A stretch of 64,000 nt of DNA from assembly GCF_000830005.1 (NCBI RefSeq), contig NZ_CP010407.1, positions 124,001 to 188,000 of the forward strand, written 5' to 3'. The notes below the pieces were generated by a model that had not been told where the DNA came from, did no database searches, and was given only the letters and a program-made list of their open reading frames with translations. Below, one piece after another: positions 2,611 through 11,031 of the stretch. A program made the translations under genes and the position numbers. The DNA is from Streptomyces vietnamensis (GTDB taxonomy: Bacteria; Actinomycetota; Actinomycetes; Streptomycetales; Streptomycetaceae). Numbering within the stretch: the first letter of the stretch is position 1; each line of letters opens with the position of its first letter.

Positions 2611-4311
2611 TTAACAGTCGGCCGATCCGCCCGCGCCCGCACCTGGGCCGTTCGGGAGCGGCGCTCGGAGGGCCTCCTTCCGGACGAAGGCCCGGCGCCG
2701 CGCGTGGTAGCTCGCGGCGGGATCGTCGAAGATCGTCCGCATCCGGGAGAGCTCCCGCTCACGGTGGGCCGCGAGGGGAGCGACGGACTCCCGGCGCTCG
2801 TGCTCCGCCTTCTTGGCCGCGATCCGCGGCTGGAGACCGCCACGGGATGCCAGGTGGAGGGCCAATCGGGTGACCTCGGCGGCGAACTCCCCGGGTCCGC
2901 AGTCGACGACCCGGTCGACCAGCCCCATGTCGAGCGATGCGGCCGCGGACACCGGCGTGGCCTCTTCGGTGAGGCGCGCGGCCAGGGCCTCGCCCACCTT
3001 CCCGGGCAGGGTGCGGGTCCAGTACTCCGATCCGTACAGGCCCATGCGCCGGTAGTGCGGGTTGAGCACCGCCCCCGAACGGCACCAGACCTCGTCGGCG
3101 GCGAGGGCGAGCATCACCCCGCCGGCGGCGGCGTTGCCGCCGATCGCGCTCACGACGAGCCGGTCGGTCGTGGTGAGAACCGCCTCGACCAGGTCGTTCA
3201 TGGCATTGATGTTGGCCCAGGACTCGGCGGCGGGGTCGGCGGCGGCCTCGATGACGTTCAGATGGATGCCGTTGGAGAAGAAGTCGCGCTGCCCGCCGAG
3301 CACCAGGACGGAGGTGGGACGCCCACGGGCGGTCTCGTACGCGTCCAGCAGGCGGCGGCACTGGTCGGTGCTCATCGCCCCGCCGGGGAACGCGAAGGAC
3401 AGGACGCCGACCGGCCCCTGTTCGCGGTACGAGATGTCGGTCCAGGTCCGCCGGCCCGGCGCCGGATCGGCGGGTGCCGGCAGTTCGGGGAGCTCCGGCA
3501 GCCGGCCCGCGAGGGCCAGGGTGGCGGGGAGCTTGCAGGCACGCGGCCTGCCGGGGCCGGTGCGGGCACGGAGTTCGGGGATCCACACCGCGCCGTCCAC
3601 GGTGGCGCGGCAGACCGCGCCCGCCCGGGTGGCCAGCAGAGCGCCGGGCCGCCCGCGCAGACCGTCCTCCGCGTGGCCGCCGTGCAGGAACCACTCGGCG
3701 CCGAGCAGCCGGTCCGGGACGCCGGGCTGCGAGTCGGCGGCCCGCAGGGTGCGCAGCACGGTCCCGGTGGTGTCCTCGCCCCACGAGATCCGGCGCTCCT
3801 CCTGGCGGAGAGCGGGACGGGCGCGGATCTCGCCGGTCTGCGGACGCGGTACCGCCCCGGCGGCGACCCTCTCGACGGCGCGGAGCACGGCGGCCACGGC
3901 GGCGTCGGACAGTTCGTTGCGGTACAGATCGCTCTTGCCGACCTCCGGCACGCGGAAGGTCGCGGATGCCCAGACGTCGCCCGCGTCCATCTCCTCGTCG
4001 GCCTGGAGGACGGTGACGCCCCACTCCTCGGCCCCGTCGTGGATCGCGTGGTCCAGCGAGGACGGGCCGCGGTCGCCCACGGGTCCGGGGTGCACGATCA
4101 GGCAACGGTGCGCCGTCCACACATCGCGGGGCACGACGGCCTTCAGCATGGGGGCCACGACCAGATCGGGCGCGTGGCGCGCCACGGCCTCGCGCACGGC
4201 GGCACCGTCGGGGGTGACCTCCACGGGAACGATGTGCCCGCGGTCGCGCAGCTCGACCAGGACGCGCTGGGTCAGGCTGTTGAAGCTGCTGGCGACGAGC
4301 AGGATGCGCAT
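2611..4311 (-). CDS. hypX: HypX/HoxX hydrogenase maturation protein (formyltransferase-enoyl-CoA hydratase fusion)
   Basis: The start at 4311 is chosen because MRILLVASS begins the formyltransferase fold and a GGAAAG ribosome site lies just upstream; the reading frame stays open further 5' but that extension looks noncoding. The N-terminal half has the formyl-THF transferase motif HPGPVGDRGPSSLD at residues 74-87. The C-terminal half is a crotonase fold with GGNAAAGGVMLALAADE. HypX is known to make the CO ligand of the NiFe centre under oxic conditions. Its position first in the operon with hhyS and hhyL fits that job. 566 residues, a typical length. Confidence 0.93.
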   Translation of the reverse strand: MRILLVASSFNSLTQRVLVELRDRGHIVPVEVTPDGAAVREAVARHAPDLVVAPMLKAVVPRDVWTAHRCLIVHPGPVGDRGPSSLDHAIHDGAEEWGVTVLQADEEMDAGDVWASATFRVPEVGKSDLYRNELSDAAVAAVLRAVERVAAGAVPRPQTGEIRARPALRQEERRISWGEDTTGTVLRTLRAADSQPGVPDRLLGAEWFLHGGHAEDGLRGRPGALLATRAGAVCRATVDGAVWIPELRARTGPGRPRACKLPATLALAGRLPELPELPAPADPAPGRRTWTDISYREQGPVGVLSFAFPGGAMSTDQCRRLLDAYETARGRPTSVLVLGGQRDFFSNGIHLNVIEAAADPAAESWANINAMNDLVEAVLTTTDRLVVSAIGGNAAAGGVMLALAADEVWCRSGAVLNPHYRRMGLYGSEYWTRTLPGKVGEALAARLTEEATPVSAAASLDMGLVDRVVDCGPGEFAAEVTRLALHLASRGGLQPRIAAKKAEHERRESVAPLAAHRERELSRMRTIFDDPAASYHARRRAFVRKEALRAPLPNGPGAGAGGSADC

Positions 4312-4571
4312 GGGCGGCCTTTCCGGGTCGCGGAGGGGGTTGCGGCCCTGGGAACCGCGGTCCACCAACCGCCTGCGATCATCGGCCAGCACGAGGAGGC
4401 CGGCAGGGTGGCGGAGCCCGCACCTCACCCGTTCGAGGTGTGCGTCCGGCCGATTGGCGGCCTGATCGCCGCAGAGCGCCGTCCAGGAGACGCGCCATGC
4501 GTCTCGTGGGAAGATCAGAGTCCCAAGGGTTTGCGAACGCATGCCCCTCGCACGGACAGGCAGGTCGGCTC

Positions 4572-4955
4572 ATGGCCGAGAAACCGAAGTCCTCCAGGCC
4601 CTCGCGCGGCGAGCCGAGCCGCGACGGTATGGCCGGGCAGCACGGCTGGTCCCCTGATGTGGACGAAACGCGACAGCAGGAGAATCCGAGCGCTTCGCGT
4701 TCCTTCCGCCCCGAGAAGCACGCGCCCCCACCCGGCAAGGGACGGAAGACCTCCAAGGAGGAAGAAGGGAACGTCCCCGGCGACACCGTTCACGGCGACA
4801 CGGCCAGGGGCGAGAAACGAGGCCGCTCATCGGAGAAGGGCATGCGCGACACCGGCCGAAGGGGTCGGACACAGCGCCCCAGTGGCACGAAGGACGACTC
4901 GGCGTTCACCGGCGTGAACCCGGACGACGACTCCTCCGGTCCCCGCCCGGGCTGA
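4572..4955 (+). CDS. Small hydrophilic, probably disordered protein of unknown function
   Basis: The 127-residue reading frame starts MAEKPKSSRPSRG and is rich in Lys, Arg, Ser, Gly, Glu and Asp with almost no hydrophobic stretches, so it is predicted to be disordered. I do not recognise the family. The frame extends upstream to 4440, but the Lys/Ser-rich composition only begins at this ATG. It is divergent from hypX with about 260 bases between them. It could be a real small stress-type protein or a chance open frame in high-GC DNA. Confidence 0.4.
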   Translation: MAEKPKSSRPSRGEPSRDGMAGQHGWSPDVDETRQQENPSASRSFRPEKHAPPPGKGRKTSKEEEGNVPGDTVHGDTARGEKRGRSSEKGMRDTGRRGRTQRPSGTKDDSAFTGVNPDDDSSGPRPG

Positions 4956-5057
4956 CGCGGCGCCGAGGACGAAGGGCCACCACGCCATACGGAGCGTTCC
5001 TCACCGCCGCTTCGGCCATCAGACGGCGGGGACTGCTCACCCTGCAGTGGACGACAC

Positions 5058-6995: not shown

Positions 6996-7013
6996 CCTAG
7001 TAGTGCTTCGTTA
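6996..7013 (+). repeat. IS701-family left terminal inverted repeat with CTAG
   Basis: CCTAGTAGTGCTTCGTTA is the exact reverse complement of 8390-8407. The CTAG at 6997-7000 recurs at 8403-8406 and is the expected four-base target duplication of IS701-family elements. Confidence 0.85.
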
Positions 7014-8402
7014 CGTCGAGTGATCTCGCCTGGTGGTGGGCATCTCCCGGTCATGAGGCTTGGGGAGGTGGAACGGCTCCGGGATGAGTTGTCGGAGTTC
7101 GTTGCCGATGTGTTCGCCTCGTTGCCGCGGCGGGATCAGCGCCGGTGGGGCGGGTGTTATCTGCGGGGTCTGATGCTGGACGGCCGGCGGAAGTCGATCC
7201 AGCCGATGGCCGAGCGGCTGCCGGACGGGAACATGCAGGCCCTGCAGCAGTTCGTGAACCAGTCGCCGTGGGATCCGCTACCGGTGCGGCGGCGGATCGC
7301 CGAGCGGTTGAGCGAGGCGATCCGGCCTGAGGTGTGGGTGATCGACGATGTGTCGTTCCCCAAGTGCGGCACCGCTTCGGTGGGGGTGGCCCGGCAGTAC
7401 TGCGGAGCGTTGGGCAAGCGGGCGAACTGCCAGGTCGCCGTCAGCGTGCACGCGGCCACCGACACCGCATCGTGCCCGCTCGACTGGGAACTGTTTCTGC
7501 CCGAGGACTGGGCGGCCGATCACGTACGACGTCAGCGTGCCGGGATTCCCGACGAGGTCGGGCACGTCTCGAAGCCCTACTTGGCTCTGGGACTGTTGGA
7601 CCGGATGGCCGAGCAGGGTCTCGCGGTGCCGGTGATCGTGGCCGATGCCGGTTACGGCCGAAGCGTGGGTTTCCGCCTCGCTTTGGAGGAACGCGGCTGG
7701 TCCTATGTCATAGCGGTGGATCCGAAGGAAGTCGCCCGCCCGGCCGCGGCCGACCCGTTCCAGCCCGCCTACGGCGGTCTGGGGCCGCCCACGCTGCCCC
7801 GCTACCGAGAGCCGGCCCGGCCCCTGACCTCGTTCGTCACCCCGGACACCTCGTTCCAACAAGTCGCCTGGCGGCAGGGCAGCAAGGGCCTGATGACCTC
7901 CCGCTTCGCCGTGATCGAAGTCCGGCCGTCGGGCAAGGAAGCCTGCCGCACCGCCCAGGAACAGGCCGGTGGACGCAACCGCTGGGACGGTGTTCTCCCG
8001 CTGAAGACCCTGCTGGTCGAACAGCCGGCGGATGCCGCCGGGCCGACCGGTTTCTGGATGACCGACCTGCCCGCCACCACACCCGTCACCGACCTGGTCC
8101 GCTGGGCGAAGATGCGCTGGCGCATCGAACACGACTACCGCGAGCTCAAGCACGGCCTGGGCCTGGACCACTTCGAGGGCCGGACCTGGCGCGGCTGGCA
8201 CCATCACGTCACCCTCGTCACCGCCGCCCAGGCCTTCCTCACCCTGCGGCGCCTCGACCCAAAAGCACGCACGCCGGCCTGACCCTCTACCAGGTCCTCG
8301 ACGCCCTTCAGGACCTGCTGCAGTGCTGGACCGGCACCTGCACCACCTGCGGCCGACGCCTGCCCCGCAACACAACCAGACTCAGAACCTAACGAAGCAC
8401 TA
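7001..8402 (+). mobile_element. IS701-family insertion sequence
   Basis: The element of about 1.4 kb is bounded by inverted ends TAGTGCTTCGTTA and flanked by CTAG on both sides. It carries one transposase gene. Removing it and one CTAG restores a CTAG followed by GGAGCTGTCCGGG, the left end of the neighbouring inverted-repeat unit, so this insertion is the younger event. Confidence 0.85.
7053..8282 (+). CDS. IS701-family DDE transposase
   Basis: 409 residues from the ATG at 7053; the frame is open further upstream beyond the left end of the element, so the internal ATG is chosen. DDE residues are visible in VWVIDDVSFPKCG, VIVADAGYG and RIEHDYRELKHGLGLDHFEGR. The protein ends at KARTPA, but the next frame continues with LTLYQVLDALQDLL and CTTCGRRLP, which looks like the normal family tail. 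A one-base indel near 8270 probably shortened the C-terminus, so activity is uncertain. Confidence 0.85.
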   Translation: MRLGEVERLRDELSEFVADVFASLPRRDQRRWGGCYLRGLMLDGRRKSIQPMAERLPDGNMQALQQFVNQSPWDPLPVRRRIAERLSEAIRPEVWVIDDVSFPKCGTASVGVARQYCGALGKRANCQVAVSVHAATDTASCPLDWELFLPEDWAADHVRRQRAGIPDEVGHVSKPYLALGLLDRMAEQGLAVPVIVADAGYGRSVGFRLALEERGWSYVIAVDPKEVARPAAADPFQPAYGGLGPPTLPRYREPARPLTSFVTPDTSFQQVAWRQGSKGLMTSRFAVIEVRPSGKEACRTAQEQAGGRNRWDGVLPLKTLLVEQPADAAGPTGFWMTDLPATTPVTDLVRWAKMRWRIEHDYRELKHGLGLDHFEGRTWRGWHHHVTLVTAAQAFLTLRRLDPKARTPA

Positions 8403-8407
8403 CTAGG
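8390..8407 (-). repeat. IS701-family right terminal inverted repeat with CTAG
   Basis: Exact 18-base inverted partner of 6996-7013. Its last bases CTAGG also form the first bases of the adjoining inverted-repeat unit. Confidence 0.85.
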
Positions 8408-8460
8408 AGCTGTCCGGGCGATCACGCGTCCCCGTTAGGGTGACTCAGCGGAGGGACGTC

Positions 8461-8691
8461 ATGAGTGCTGTGGAGATGAGTCGCGCGGAGGCGGTCACGC
8501 TCGTGCAGCGGATCATGGAGGCGGACTACGCCTCGGACGACGAGGTGGACCGCTGGCTGGACAGACTGGACAGAGCCCTGGCATGCCCGTCTGGTCATGT
8601 CAGCGACTTGATCTTTTGGTCGCGGGCGCGGGAGCTTTCGGCTGACGAGGTAGTCGACCAGGCTCTGGCGTACCGGCCGATCGCTTTGTGA
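8461..8691 (+). CDS. Colicin E/pyocin-type DNase immunity protein homologue
   Basis: The 76-residue acidic protein starts at the ATG preceded by GGAGGG. Its layout follows the Im2/Im7/Im9 four-helix family: an N-terminal helix with AVTLVQRIMEAD, an acidic second helix DDEVDRWLDRLDRAL, the loop CPSGHVSDLIFW at residues 42-53 (compare HPSGSDLIYY in Im9), and a C-terminal helix. Family members bind and block the HNH DNase domain of a cognate toxin. No toxin gene is visible nearby, so it is an orphan in this window. Assignment is by eye and length. Confidence 0.65.
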   Translation: MSAVEMSRAEAVTLVQRIMEADYASDDEVDRWLDRLDRALACPSGHVSDLIFWSRARELSADEVVDQALAYRPIAL

Positions 8692-8700
8692 GGTGACGGC

Positions 8701-9644
8701 TCAACTCCGAAGCCAGATGAGCAGAGCTGCGGTGGTGGCCGTGCCGAGGAAGACGTAGCCGCGCTTGTCATAGCGAGTGGCCACGGCCCGGGACTGCTTC
8801 AGCCTGTTGATCGCCCGTTCGACGGTGTTGCGCTTCTTGTACCGCTCTTCGCCGAAGCCTGGCGGCCGTCCGCCGCGTGAGCCCTTGCGCAGGCGGGCGG
8901 CCTGGCTGTCGGTCTTCTCCGGGATCGTGTGCCGAATGCCCCGGTGCCGCAGGTACTTGCGGCACGGACCGTTGCTGTAGCCCTTGTCGGCCGCGAGGCT
9001 GTCGGGCTTCATGCGCGGTCGGCCCGGACCGACCCGCGGGACGCGGATCTTTTCCAGCACCGTCTGGAAGTGAGTGCAGTCCGCCCGCTGTCCGGCGGTG
9101 ACGACCAGGGAGAGCGGGCGGCAGCGGCCGTCCGCGCTCAGGTGGAGCTTGCTGGTGAACCCGCCACGCGAGCGGCCCAAGCCCTCACCTCCAGCACCAC
9201 CTCCACCAGGCGGGCGACCAGACTCTGCCACGGCGTCTCGGCCTGGTGTTCCATCTCTTCGGCCCCCTTTGATCCCGGAGCCGGAGCCGGAGCCGGAGGC
9301 GGGTCGGTGCGGGCGCCGGCCGCGTGCTGGTGCGCGCGGACAATGGTGGAGTCGACCGAGATATCCCAGTCGATCTCGCCTGCGGCGTCGGCCGCGGCCT
9401 GGACTTGCTGGAGCAGGCGTTCCCAGGTTCCGTCGGCCGACCACAGGCGGTGGCGTTCGTAGACGGTCTTCCACGGCCCGAAACGTTCGGGCAGGTCACG
9501 CCACTGCACCCCGGTCCGCACCCGGTGCAGAATCCCGTCGATCACCTGCCGGTGGTTCCGCCACCGGCCACAACGCCCGTTGCTGACCGGCAGGAACGGG
9601 CGCAGCCGTTCCCACTCGCCATCACTCAGATCACCTCGTCCCAT
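8701..9644 (-). pseudogene. IS5-family transposase in two overlapping frames
   Basis: The first frame (9644 down to 9138) gives the N-terminal part: LSDGEWERLRPFLP, HRVRTGVQWRDLPERFGPW and the first catalytic Asp in WDISVDSTIVRAH. The second frame (ending at 8701) gives the rest: GRSRGGFTSKLHLSADG, SLAADKGYSN and the terminal ERAINRLKQSRAVATRYDKR with the catalytic Glu. The frames meet near 9190. Many IS5 elements join such frames by programmed frameshifting, so this may still be functional rather than broken. Confidence 0.8.
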
Positions 9645-9700
9645 GGCAGGAAGAACGACCTGGACAAACGGCAGTCACAAGATCGCACGAGCCCTGATCC

Positions 9701-10174
9701 CTAGTCCGTGACGAAGGGTGCGTATCCGACCGGGACCTCGCTCACCTGAAGGTCCGAGAAGAGCAAGGTCACGTTGTGCGCGCTGGTTTCCATGCGCACC
9801 TCGTGAAATTCGATCCCGAGGGCCTTCGACCAGCGGCGGGTCGCCTCGGACTCAGGAAGGAGTTTGGCTCCTGGGTACAGGGCGTGCCACTTCACCCCCC
9901 AGACGTATCCGTCGAGGTCGGCACCCGTTTTGTGGTCGATGAGCCGGTCGTCCAAGGAGACCCGCCAGGTGTCCGCCGGCACTGACGTCTCACACCGGGC
10001 CTCGACGCAGTACCGGAAGAGATACCGCAGGTGGGACGGCGCAATGCCGGTTCGGGGATCAGCCGTCGCGTAGATGATGACCTCGTAGTCGCGCATGTAG
10101 TTGGTGTATCCGTGGTGCACGACGGCGTGATCGAAGGTCTCGTCCAGCATCTGCTTAAGTACGGCGGTGTCCAT
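9701..10174 (-). CDS. YxiG-like protein, possible immunity/accessory protein
   Basis: 157 residues, starting MDTAVLKQMLDETFDHAVV. The stretch HHGYTNYMRDYEVIIYATAD and the following YLFRYCVEA resemble proteins annotated YxiG-like; I recall them near polymorphic toxin loci such as the Bacillus wapA region, but this is memory rather than a search. The stop TAG sits in a CTAG immediately before the transposase promoter region. It is cargo of the same inverted-repeat unit as the immunity gene. Confidence 0.5.
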   Translation of the reverse strand: MDTAVLKQMLDETFDHAVVHHGYTNYMRDYEVIIYATADPRTGIAPSHLRYLFRYCVEARCETSVPADTWRVSLDDRLIDHKTGADLDGYVWGVKWHALYPGAKLLPESEATRRWSKALGIEFHEVRMETSAHNVTLLFSDLQVSEVPVGYAPFVTD

Positions 10175-10263
10175 GCCGCCCTTCTACCTCACTGGGCAAG
10201 ACCCTCGGTAACGAGATTCACGGATGCTGGGCGCCGCTGCCTTCAGAGATCGCCCGGACAGTC

Positions 10264-11031
10264 CTAGTCGTCCCTCTCCATGGCGCGCTTCATCTCCGCG
10301 TTCAGCGTGAGGTAGTACGCGGTGCTATGGGTTCGGGTGTAGGAGCAGACCAGGCAGGCGCCGCTGCCGGTCCCCTCGAACTCGGCCGGATAGTCGAGCT
10401 TGAAGCTCTCGTACCCGCACACCCCGCAGTCTTCGAGGTCGCAACCCTCCCGGTCTGGATTGTGCTTGGGGTCGGGGTACTCGACGAGCTCGGGAGCCCG
10501 CTCGGCGCGGAACTCCGCTTCCTCGTCGCCGAGAAATTCGAGGTACTTCTGCGCCCGGTCCCGCTCGTAGATATCGCGAACCTCGGCCTTGACCCATTGG
10601 CCGTCGCTCACCACCTCGGCGATGCGCCTCAGCGCCCGATGCTCGTCCAGGACCAGGAGCGCATCGACGTGGCGTCGCTCCAGCTTTCCCGATCCGCGGC
10701 CATGGCGGGCGGCCTGAGTCTTGTCAACGCCGTCGCGCAGGGTCGTCGTGTCGACGCAGACACCGTCCGAGTCGGGATCGGTTCCCGGTATGAGGGAGGT
10801 GCCGTCAGGCTGCTCGTCCGCCTTCTCCTTGATGACGCCGAGGAGAGCGGCAGCGGAACGCATCCGTGGCCCCTTCGGCTCGCGCTCTTCGCCGGGCCAC
10901 TCGGCGGCCACAACGGCGAGGAGCCCGTTGCTCAGGGCCTGATCGAAGATGGCCTCACCCCCGGGGACCTCGTGGTCTCTGTCCAAGACCGCCGAGCAGC
11001 GGGCGAACTGGTAGCTGCGCTCTATGTCCAT
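10264..11031 (-). CDS. Unknown 255-residue protein with C-terminal Cys-rich region
   Basis: The start at 11031 (MDIERSYQFARCSAVLDRD) is chosen because coding-like composition begins there; the frame is open upstream but reads as a shadow of the opposite gene. The C-terminal third has CDLEDCGVCGYESFKL and ACLVCSYTRT, likely one zinc-binding site, followed by a short helix. The middle is acidic and contains a DALLVLDEHRALRRIAEVV segment. I do not recognise the family. Its TAG stop is part of the CTAG at the edge of the neighbouring mobile unit, so the native C-terminus may have been altered by insertion. Confidence 0.6.
   Translation of the reverse strand: MDIERSYQFARCSAVLDRDHEVPGGEAIFDQALSNGLLAVVAAEWPGEEREPKGPRMRSAAALLGVIKEKADEQPDGTSLIPGTDPDSDGVCVDTTTLRDGVDKTQAARHGRGSGKLERRHVDALLVLDEHRALRRIAEVVSDGQWVKAEVRDIYERDRAQKYLEFLGDEEAEFRAERAPELVEYPDPKHNPDREGCDLEDCGVCGYESFKLDYPAEFEGTGSGACLVCSYTRTHSTAYYLTLNAEMKRAMERDD

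Follow-up and report, generated by a model that had tools for sequence, protein, structure and literature searches.

The locus examined here lies in a 64,000-nucleotide stretch of the Streptomyces vietnamensis contig NZ_CP010407.1 (assembly GCF_000830005.1, positions 124,001 to 188,000, forward strand; hereafter the window), in which an IS5-type transposase gene is found between a homologue of the colicin E-type immunity genes (Imm) and a YxiG-like gene, the three being enclosed by inverted ends. This arrangement raises the question of whether an ordinary insertion sequence (IS) became nested between two host genes, or whether the whole segment is one mobile element with passenger genes, and of what such passengers would bring to a host. 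The answer in which we place high confidence is that the unit is a transporter IS of the IS5 family, mosaic in origin, which carries an orphan Imm gene together with a YxiG gene, and whose Imm gene hosts may keep after the transposase has decayed.

The unit and its ends

The unit spans 1.86 kb from a left CTAG (8403-8406) to a right CTAG (10264-10267). Between them are found the left terminal inverted repeat (GAGCTGTCCGGGCGATCACGCGTC, 8407-8430, + strand), the Imm gene (8461-8691, +), which codes for 76 amino acids, bears the label "e9imm" and has its ATG at 8461 behind a Shine-Dalgarno-like GGAGGGA (8450-8456), two overlapping transposase (Tnp) frames on the - strand, a YxiG_2-family gene of 157 amino acids (9701-10174, -), and the right terminal inverted repeat (GACTGTCCGGGCGATCTCTGAAGG on the - strand, 10240-10263). 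The repeats are imperfect overall, while their 14-base cores (CTGTCCGGGCGATC) are identical, occurring exactly at 8410-8423 (+) and 10248-10261 (-) with 100% complementarity. In the 9.15 Mb genome the core has four exact matches, three of which are unit ends (two in the window and one in a second copy described below), and its reversed control pattern has none. Coordinates and profiles thus agree with the first-pass annotation, which had described near-identical ends next to CTAG around these three genes and a gap of only nine bases between the stops of Imm (8689-8691) and the transposase (8701-8703). Its view that the transposase has no independent ends inside the unit was also borne out: the fuller end motif (CTAG plus inverted repeat, up to three mismatches) matched only at 8403 and 10267 in the whole 64 kb window, and no inner ends were found there.

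The upstream transposase frame (9138-9644) carries DUF4096 and the downstream, -1 frame (8701-9474) the DDE domain, and the two match the IS5 profile NF033580 above its cut-off (2.8e-39 and 3.3e-40). A slippery heptamer, A_AAG_GGG, lies at 9264-9270 (-) in the right frame for -1 frameshifting, and is present in the same region of 58 of the 59 family members. Frames and heptamer together suggest an ordinary IS5-type element that uses -1 frameshifting, and the window copy looks potentially active. We take the lineage to be "IS427-like".

When the unit was compared with 392 genomes of the genus, the matches listed were of four kinds: Tnp only, Tnp-YxiG reaching the right end, Imm-Tnp starting from the left end, and partial matches. 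The borders of 29 loci (L044-L072) revealed plain elements of approximately 1,008 bp bounded by CTAG-GACTTGTCCGG(C/G)CGATCA, which is the repeat type of the window, and the same borders were found in Imm-Tnp and Tnp-YxiG elements. Since cargo-free relatives bear this repeat type directly beside the transposase, the outer repeats can be regarded as the transposase's own ends. IS5 homologues that end beside their transposase had been proposed as evidence against a larger unit; such homologues do exist, but because their repeats are of the same type they represent the cargo-free form, and the unit stands. These comparisons support a reading of the unit as one mobile element, bounded by the inverted repeats of its transposase and by CTAG duplications.

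A second copy and a pre-insertion site

The whole unit recurs once more in its own assembly, which consists of two contigs, namely on the 287 kb contig (C2). The end-to-end alignment of both copies runs from CTAG to CTAG and stops outside; the copies are identical over approximately 870 bp, counted from the left end, and diverge by a few per cent in the remainder. On C2 the right repeat has a few changes. Each copy is flanked by CTAG on both sides, whereas the left neighbours differ, with an IS701 element abutting the left CTAG in the window and an IS630 element abutting it on C2. The expectation that the whole unit would be met at another CTAG site with matching borders was therefore confirmed by the C2 copy, apart from the slight changes in its right repeat. 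Both double-cargo copies belong to this genome, with no further full-length match among the matches listed. The IS630-family element beside the C2 copy (L035, about 3,884-5,012, G000:C2) means that another IS is found at the same end in both copies. Within the transposase gene, a CCGGAG repeat (window 9275-9298) is longer by 18 bases (three units) in the C2 copy.

Pre-insertion sites were reconstructed by fusing the flanks of elements through one CTAG; ten joined sites were made, of which four (L086, L045, L047 and L170) were searched together. For L170, a sibling element of 1,313 bp with another passenger, the joined flanks align without interruption over all 444 bases, at 88%, with a genome (G243) that has a single CTAG, and over 286 and 237 bases with two others (G009 and G065), again with a single CTAG each, while three genomes (G117, G116, G103) read CTAT at this site. 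Together with the CTAG flanking both copies of the unit, the single CTAG at this empty site identifies a short target-site duplication. At the L047 site relatives read CTGG and differ beyond it, so that no exact site was obtained, and the matches listed for L086 and L045 included none that bridged the site. Likewise, the matches listed for three plasmid Imm loci included no empty site, and none of the sites searched gave an exact one for any Imm element. The window copy does not lend itself to this comparison, because the relatives of its right-flank gene are distant and its left flank is the IS701 element; on C2 the left flank is the IS630 element, and the right flank was matched only from base 121 or beyond in the 15 of 92 records that were listed. 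The search for empty sites that had been recommended was thus successful for a cargo-bearing sibling, and negative for the window's own copies and for Imm elements.

The Imm and YxiG passengers

A PDB profile search with Imm returned matches to Im9, and the protein has the four-helix Im fold, with 19-26% identity to Im9 chains in a fold alignment (VIA-align). PF01320.25 was annotated on the 120 homologues listed, out of 418. When the Imm profile was run against 197 genomes of the order, the family, divergent members included, was present in 48. Three of twelve divergent Imm loci that were fetched sit directly behind very long frames, which according to Pfam consist of RHS repeats ending in Col-Pyo_DNase (4.6e-35, 1e-37 and 3.2e-35), and the toxin-linked Imm relatives exceed the PF01320 cut-off in all three cases scanned. 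The DNase family PF21431 was found in five of 219 genus genomes, and in all five the DNase domain is followed, on its own strand, by a frame of the Imm family; one of these DNase frames (G057) has an internal stop. Two further genomes with a DNase-Imm pair (G275 and G442) were reached through Imm. The Streptomyces proteins with a Col-Pyo DNase tip and an Imm-family partner are those of loci L283, L284 and L286-L291, with RHS in the three scanned.

No PF21431 DNase was detected in the genome of the window. A profile built from six Streptomyces DNases was additionally used to scan 84 loci, most of them extending 4-5 kb to each side: it matched the toxin loci alone, and neither the 67 IS-type or plasmid Imm loci, among them that of the window, nor the other eight divergent Imm loci (L275-L282) gave a match. 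On these grounds the IS-type gene is here called orphan. Profile, fold, toxin-linked relatives and the lack of PF21431 in this genome together support the proposal that the small gene encodes an E-type immunity protein whose toxin is missing. When 71 Imm proteins are placed on a tree, the 56 that are IS-borne, the seven linked to a toxin and the eight other divergent ones each occupy one side of a branch, which would fit, without proving it, a single capture of Imm by the IS lineage; the tree is built on 76 columns, with long branches and 34 of 66 forks weak.

Six of the divergent orphan Imm genes (L275-L280) are found in the window's genome, which has one (G000:C1:2642270), and in five other genomes. 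Their neighbours are regulator genes, with an HTH_31 neighbour at L280 according to the Pfam scan; we presume that GntR, integrase and integrative-element labels apply among them. L281 and L282 adjoin a gene that we take to be flotillin-like. A tblastn search of phage records with Imm and with a YxiG relative gave no match. Imm genes near Tox-REase toxins in two plasmids were considered as possible pairs and discarded, as one is an IS relic and the other a 41% homologue located about 1.1 kb away. At L231 (4930-5817), in an S. anulatus plasmid, an Imm-IS relic lies behind a Tox-REase-5 toxin gene and its neighbour.

The second passenger matches YxiG_2 (PF24712) with 286.8 bits against a cut-off of 27 (5e-86), and an intact YxiG was seen at 24 of 30 loci, regardless of whether the IS accompanies it. 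A close relative gave no informative match in NCBIfam or PADLOC, and the YxiG profile found nothing meaningful in the PDB (best 0.47). The description of both passengers as immunity-type can therefore be retained for Imm, on the evidence given above, but these searches lend no support to an immunity role for the YxiG-like protein.

Retention of Imm after transposase decay

In total 63 Imm loci were examined, among them the two copies of this genome; L122, cut by a contig edge, was excluded, and the pairs L047/L078 and L220/L221 each share one site. Short conserved Imm peptides had served to find these loci, a procedure that favours intact genes, so that strongly decayed Imm is under-counted in the following figures. 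A nearly full transposase is present at 14 loci, with Imm intact in 12. At 25 loci the transposase is reduced or missing and some trace of the IS remains; here Imm is intact in 23 and the left end visible in 19, and two loci (L076 and L084) still have both ends. No IS trace was detected by the automatic test at 18 loci, of which 15 have an intact Imm, and eroded ends could be seen by eye in five of these 18 (L095, L098, L104, L108, L110). The remaining six loci run off their contig, all with Imm intact. The median dN/dS of Imm is 0.31 with a nearly full transposase, 0.21 where it is reduced or missing and 0.32 without IS trace. An Imm relic without transposase was observed at L215 (4001-4400), where it runs into a MafI-type immunity gene that is annotated as intact in a sister plasmid.

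Cargo exchange and mosaic origin

For the frequency of cargo, 55 loci were fetched on the basis of a transposase-only match, of which 41 had a definable end pair (up to three mismatches) and 14 were dropped. Thirteen of the 41 are plain, two of these calls (L167, L195) also having a more distant left end, and 28 hold at least 200 bp of extra DNA, located on the 3' side of the transposase in 22, on the 5' side in six and on both sides in none. The end motif matched 102 times in the 55 loci, compared to a mean of 1.0 over five rounds of shuffled two-base blocks. The loci as a whole yielded 63 distinct elements, of which 45 have CTAG at both ends and 59 at one or both; this set is biased towards Imm and YxiG because both had served as queries. 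Among 18 other cargo open reading frames scanned with Pfam, matches above cut-off were limited to three, namely a SnoaL-like/DUF4440, an S1-domain and a GNAT protein; the other 15 gave no such match, and nine of the 18, rescanned with NCBIfam, gave nothing above cut-off.

A tree of 61 transposase genes, in which 26 of 58 forks are weak, requires 11 changes among the five labels that recur (Imm, YxiG, plain and two further cargo families), against a minimum of four, and 29 changes among all 22 labels, many of them single, against a minimum of 21. Judged from these sequences, the IS5 lineage is a family whose cargo is exchangeable.

The element of the window is itself a double-cargo mosaic as far as its similarities indicate. 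In the portion of the transposase adjoining Imm, mean similarity is higher to Imm-Tnp than to Tnp-YxiG elements, as at element bases 300-400 (0.91 vs 0.83) and 600-700 (0.86 vs 0.78), whereas just before the transposase start, at bases 1200-1290, Tnp-YxiG elements are closest (0.84 vs 0.78 for Imm elements). Over bases 800-1200 the individual elements nearest to it are carriers of a third cargo (L053, L054 and L069; 0.95-0.97), and more than two lineages may have contributed.

Proposed mechanism and alternative explanations

Under the proposed model, one transposase, apparently produced through a -1 frameshift, would act on the outer inverted repeats, and insertion at CTAG, with duplication of this sequence, would carry both passenger genes along. 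Imm and YxiG would have been united by recombination inside the transposase gene between elements of different cargo. As an orphan related to the immunity proteins that accompany RHS toxins tipped with a colicin E-type DNase, Imm would bind and block such a DNase when delivered by a rival, thus protecting the receiving cell, and after insertion the transposase could decay while the hosts keep Imm. The broader proposition, in which an IS5 lineage delivers single genes throughout Streptomyces, swaps its cargo within the transposase gene, spreads an antidote to RHS-DNases and has left many domesticated e9imm genes, we regard as somewhat favoured by the available data.

Several observations weigh against this model or narrow it. 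The window Imm scores 16.2 bits with Colicin_Pyocin (PF01320.23), below the gathering cut-off of 21.2, although profile, fold and context lend support to its identity. Since the IS-type Imm proteins form a group apart from the toxin-linked ones in a weakly resolved tree, their target may be another DNase, or they may have none. In the window's genome, two PF12639 DNase domains (L227 and L228, G000:C1 3454761 and 3496326), one of them in a frame of 3583 amino acids, are not partnered by Imm; the neighbour of the long frame, and the sequence fused to the other domain, we assume to be SUKH-like. End pairs called at up to three mismatches may in some cases be due to chance, as in the large L182 call, and an exact empty site was obtained for one sibling only among the four joined sites searched, not for the window's copies. 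A simple fusion of two parents, Imm-Tnp and Tnp-YxiG, was dropped because the middle of the transposase is nearest to third-cargo elements, and only a mosaic is claimed. Finally, the bare 14-base core with up to two mismatches was found three times in the window against 1.83 expected by chance; being unremarkable in itself, it leaves the significance of the ends to the CTAG, the second copy and the relatives.

This last figure is also what can be said for a coincidence, in which an ordinary IS5 would be nested between two host genes flanked by chance short inverted repeats, some 1.8 such 14-mers being expected in the window. Such a coincidence has a negligible probability in our opinion: the whole unit is found twice with different flanks, the second copy refuting this explanation in practice, no inner ends were found in the window, and Imm-Tnp and Tnp-YxiG elements share the same borders. 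The possibility that Imm, and YxiG, assist or regulate transposition instead of being cargo of benefit to the host would account for their position within the inverted repeats and for the tight layout of many copies, in which some 60 bp separate the end from the start of Imm and 15 bp the match to Imm from that to the transposase, the window being alike; we nevertheless consider it very improbable, as relatives of the same transposase carry other DNA (28 of 41) or none (13 of 41), Imm outlives the transposase, and Imm relatives are found behind DNase toxins without this IS. Neutral hitchhiking, by which an unprotective Imm would travel with the mobile unit and persist by chance or through recent insertion, is in agreement with a cargo that is diverse and mostly unrecognisable as immunity (15 of 18 other frames without a Pfam match above cut-off). 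We hold this to be unlikely, although of more than marginal weight, given the number of intact Imm genes where the transposase is reduced or missing (23 of 25) or where no IS trace is left (15 of 18), the low median dN/dS (0.21-0.32) and the linkage of the Imm family to a DNase domain in all five genomes; some of the divergence behind these retention figures may predate the decay of the transposase.

Relation to known systems and significance

The concept of transporter ISs (tIS), insertion sequences that take passenger genes along, is already established (PMC9330008), and the unit resembles them in that a single IS encloses passenger genes within its own inverted repeats and moves, or would move, as a unit; these passengers are absent from plain relatives with the same end type. 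It differs in that 28 of 41 sampled members of one IS5 lineage carry extra DNA, with a cargo that varies and lies mainly on the 3' side of the transposase, and in that one cargo is an orphan toxin-immunity gene, a kind of cargo not named in the parts of PMC9330008 drawn upon here. The DUF4096 and DDE transposase in overlapping frames, the short inverted repeats and the CTAG duplication are those of the IS5 family (NF033580, transpos_IS5_3), while the plain relatives found here measure about 1.0 kb, compared to 1.86 kb with two passengers.

In the sections of PMC12546727 consulted, orphan bacteriocin immunity genes on mobile DNA are reported from many E. coli plasmids and read as a gain of protection; whether toxin loss or immunity gain gives rise to them is stated there to be unknown. 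The likeness lies in immunity without toxin on mobile DNA; the E. coli bacteriocin genes are described there in composite transposons with two flanking elements, whereas a single Streptomyces IS is involved here. Imm shares its four-helix fold and a DLI-aromatic-aromatic segment with Im9/Im7 (PF01320) and with Tox-ColE7/Imm-ColE7 as treated in the relevant part of PMC3482391, and its relatives are likewise paired with a Col-Pyo DNase at RHS tips; the Tox-ColE7 row of that paper lists no actinobacteria, and the IS-borne Imm group is toxin-free and diverged. In the literature searched, no report of IS-borne orphan immunity genes in Streptomyces was found. A Streptomyces IS lineage with frequent and exchangeable cargo, including an antidote gene without its toxin, is as far as these searches show apparently new.

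An IS that carries only the antidote, and whose gene stays intact after transposase decay, brings the question of immunity gain within direct experimental reach, in a genus that is tractable, and the Imm-Tnp form, at about 1.29 kb, is a small vector provided by nature. Protection may be passed from strain to strain by such elements, related ones carrying Imm or other genes, and they are a possible explanation for the many scattered e9imm annotations in Streptomyces. The cargo share of 28 in 41 suggests that some insertion sequences routinely move other genes.

Neighbouring features

Outside the unit, an IS701-family element (7001-8402, +) abuts the left CTAG. With its flanking CTAGs it spans 6997-8406, and the two elements share one CTAG, the left one of the unit, as a target duplication. 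On the other side lies the gene at 10264-11031 (-), for which relatives, all of them distant (30-57% identity), were found in 11 of the 391 other genomes of the genus. Its TAG stop is contained in the right CTAG, and insertion at this CTAG leaves the neighbouring frame intact.

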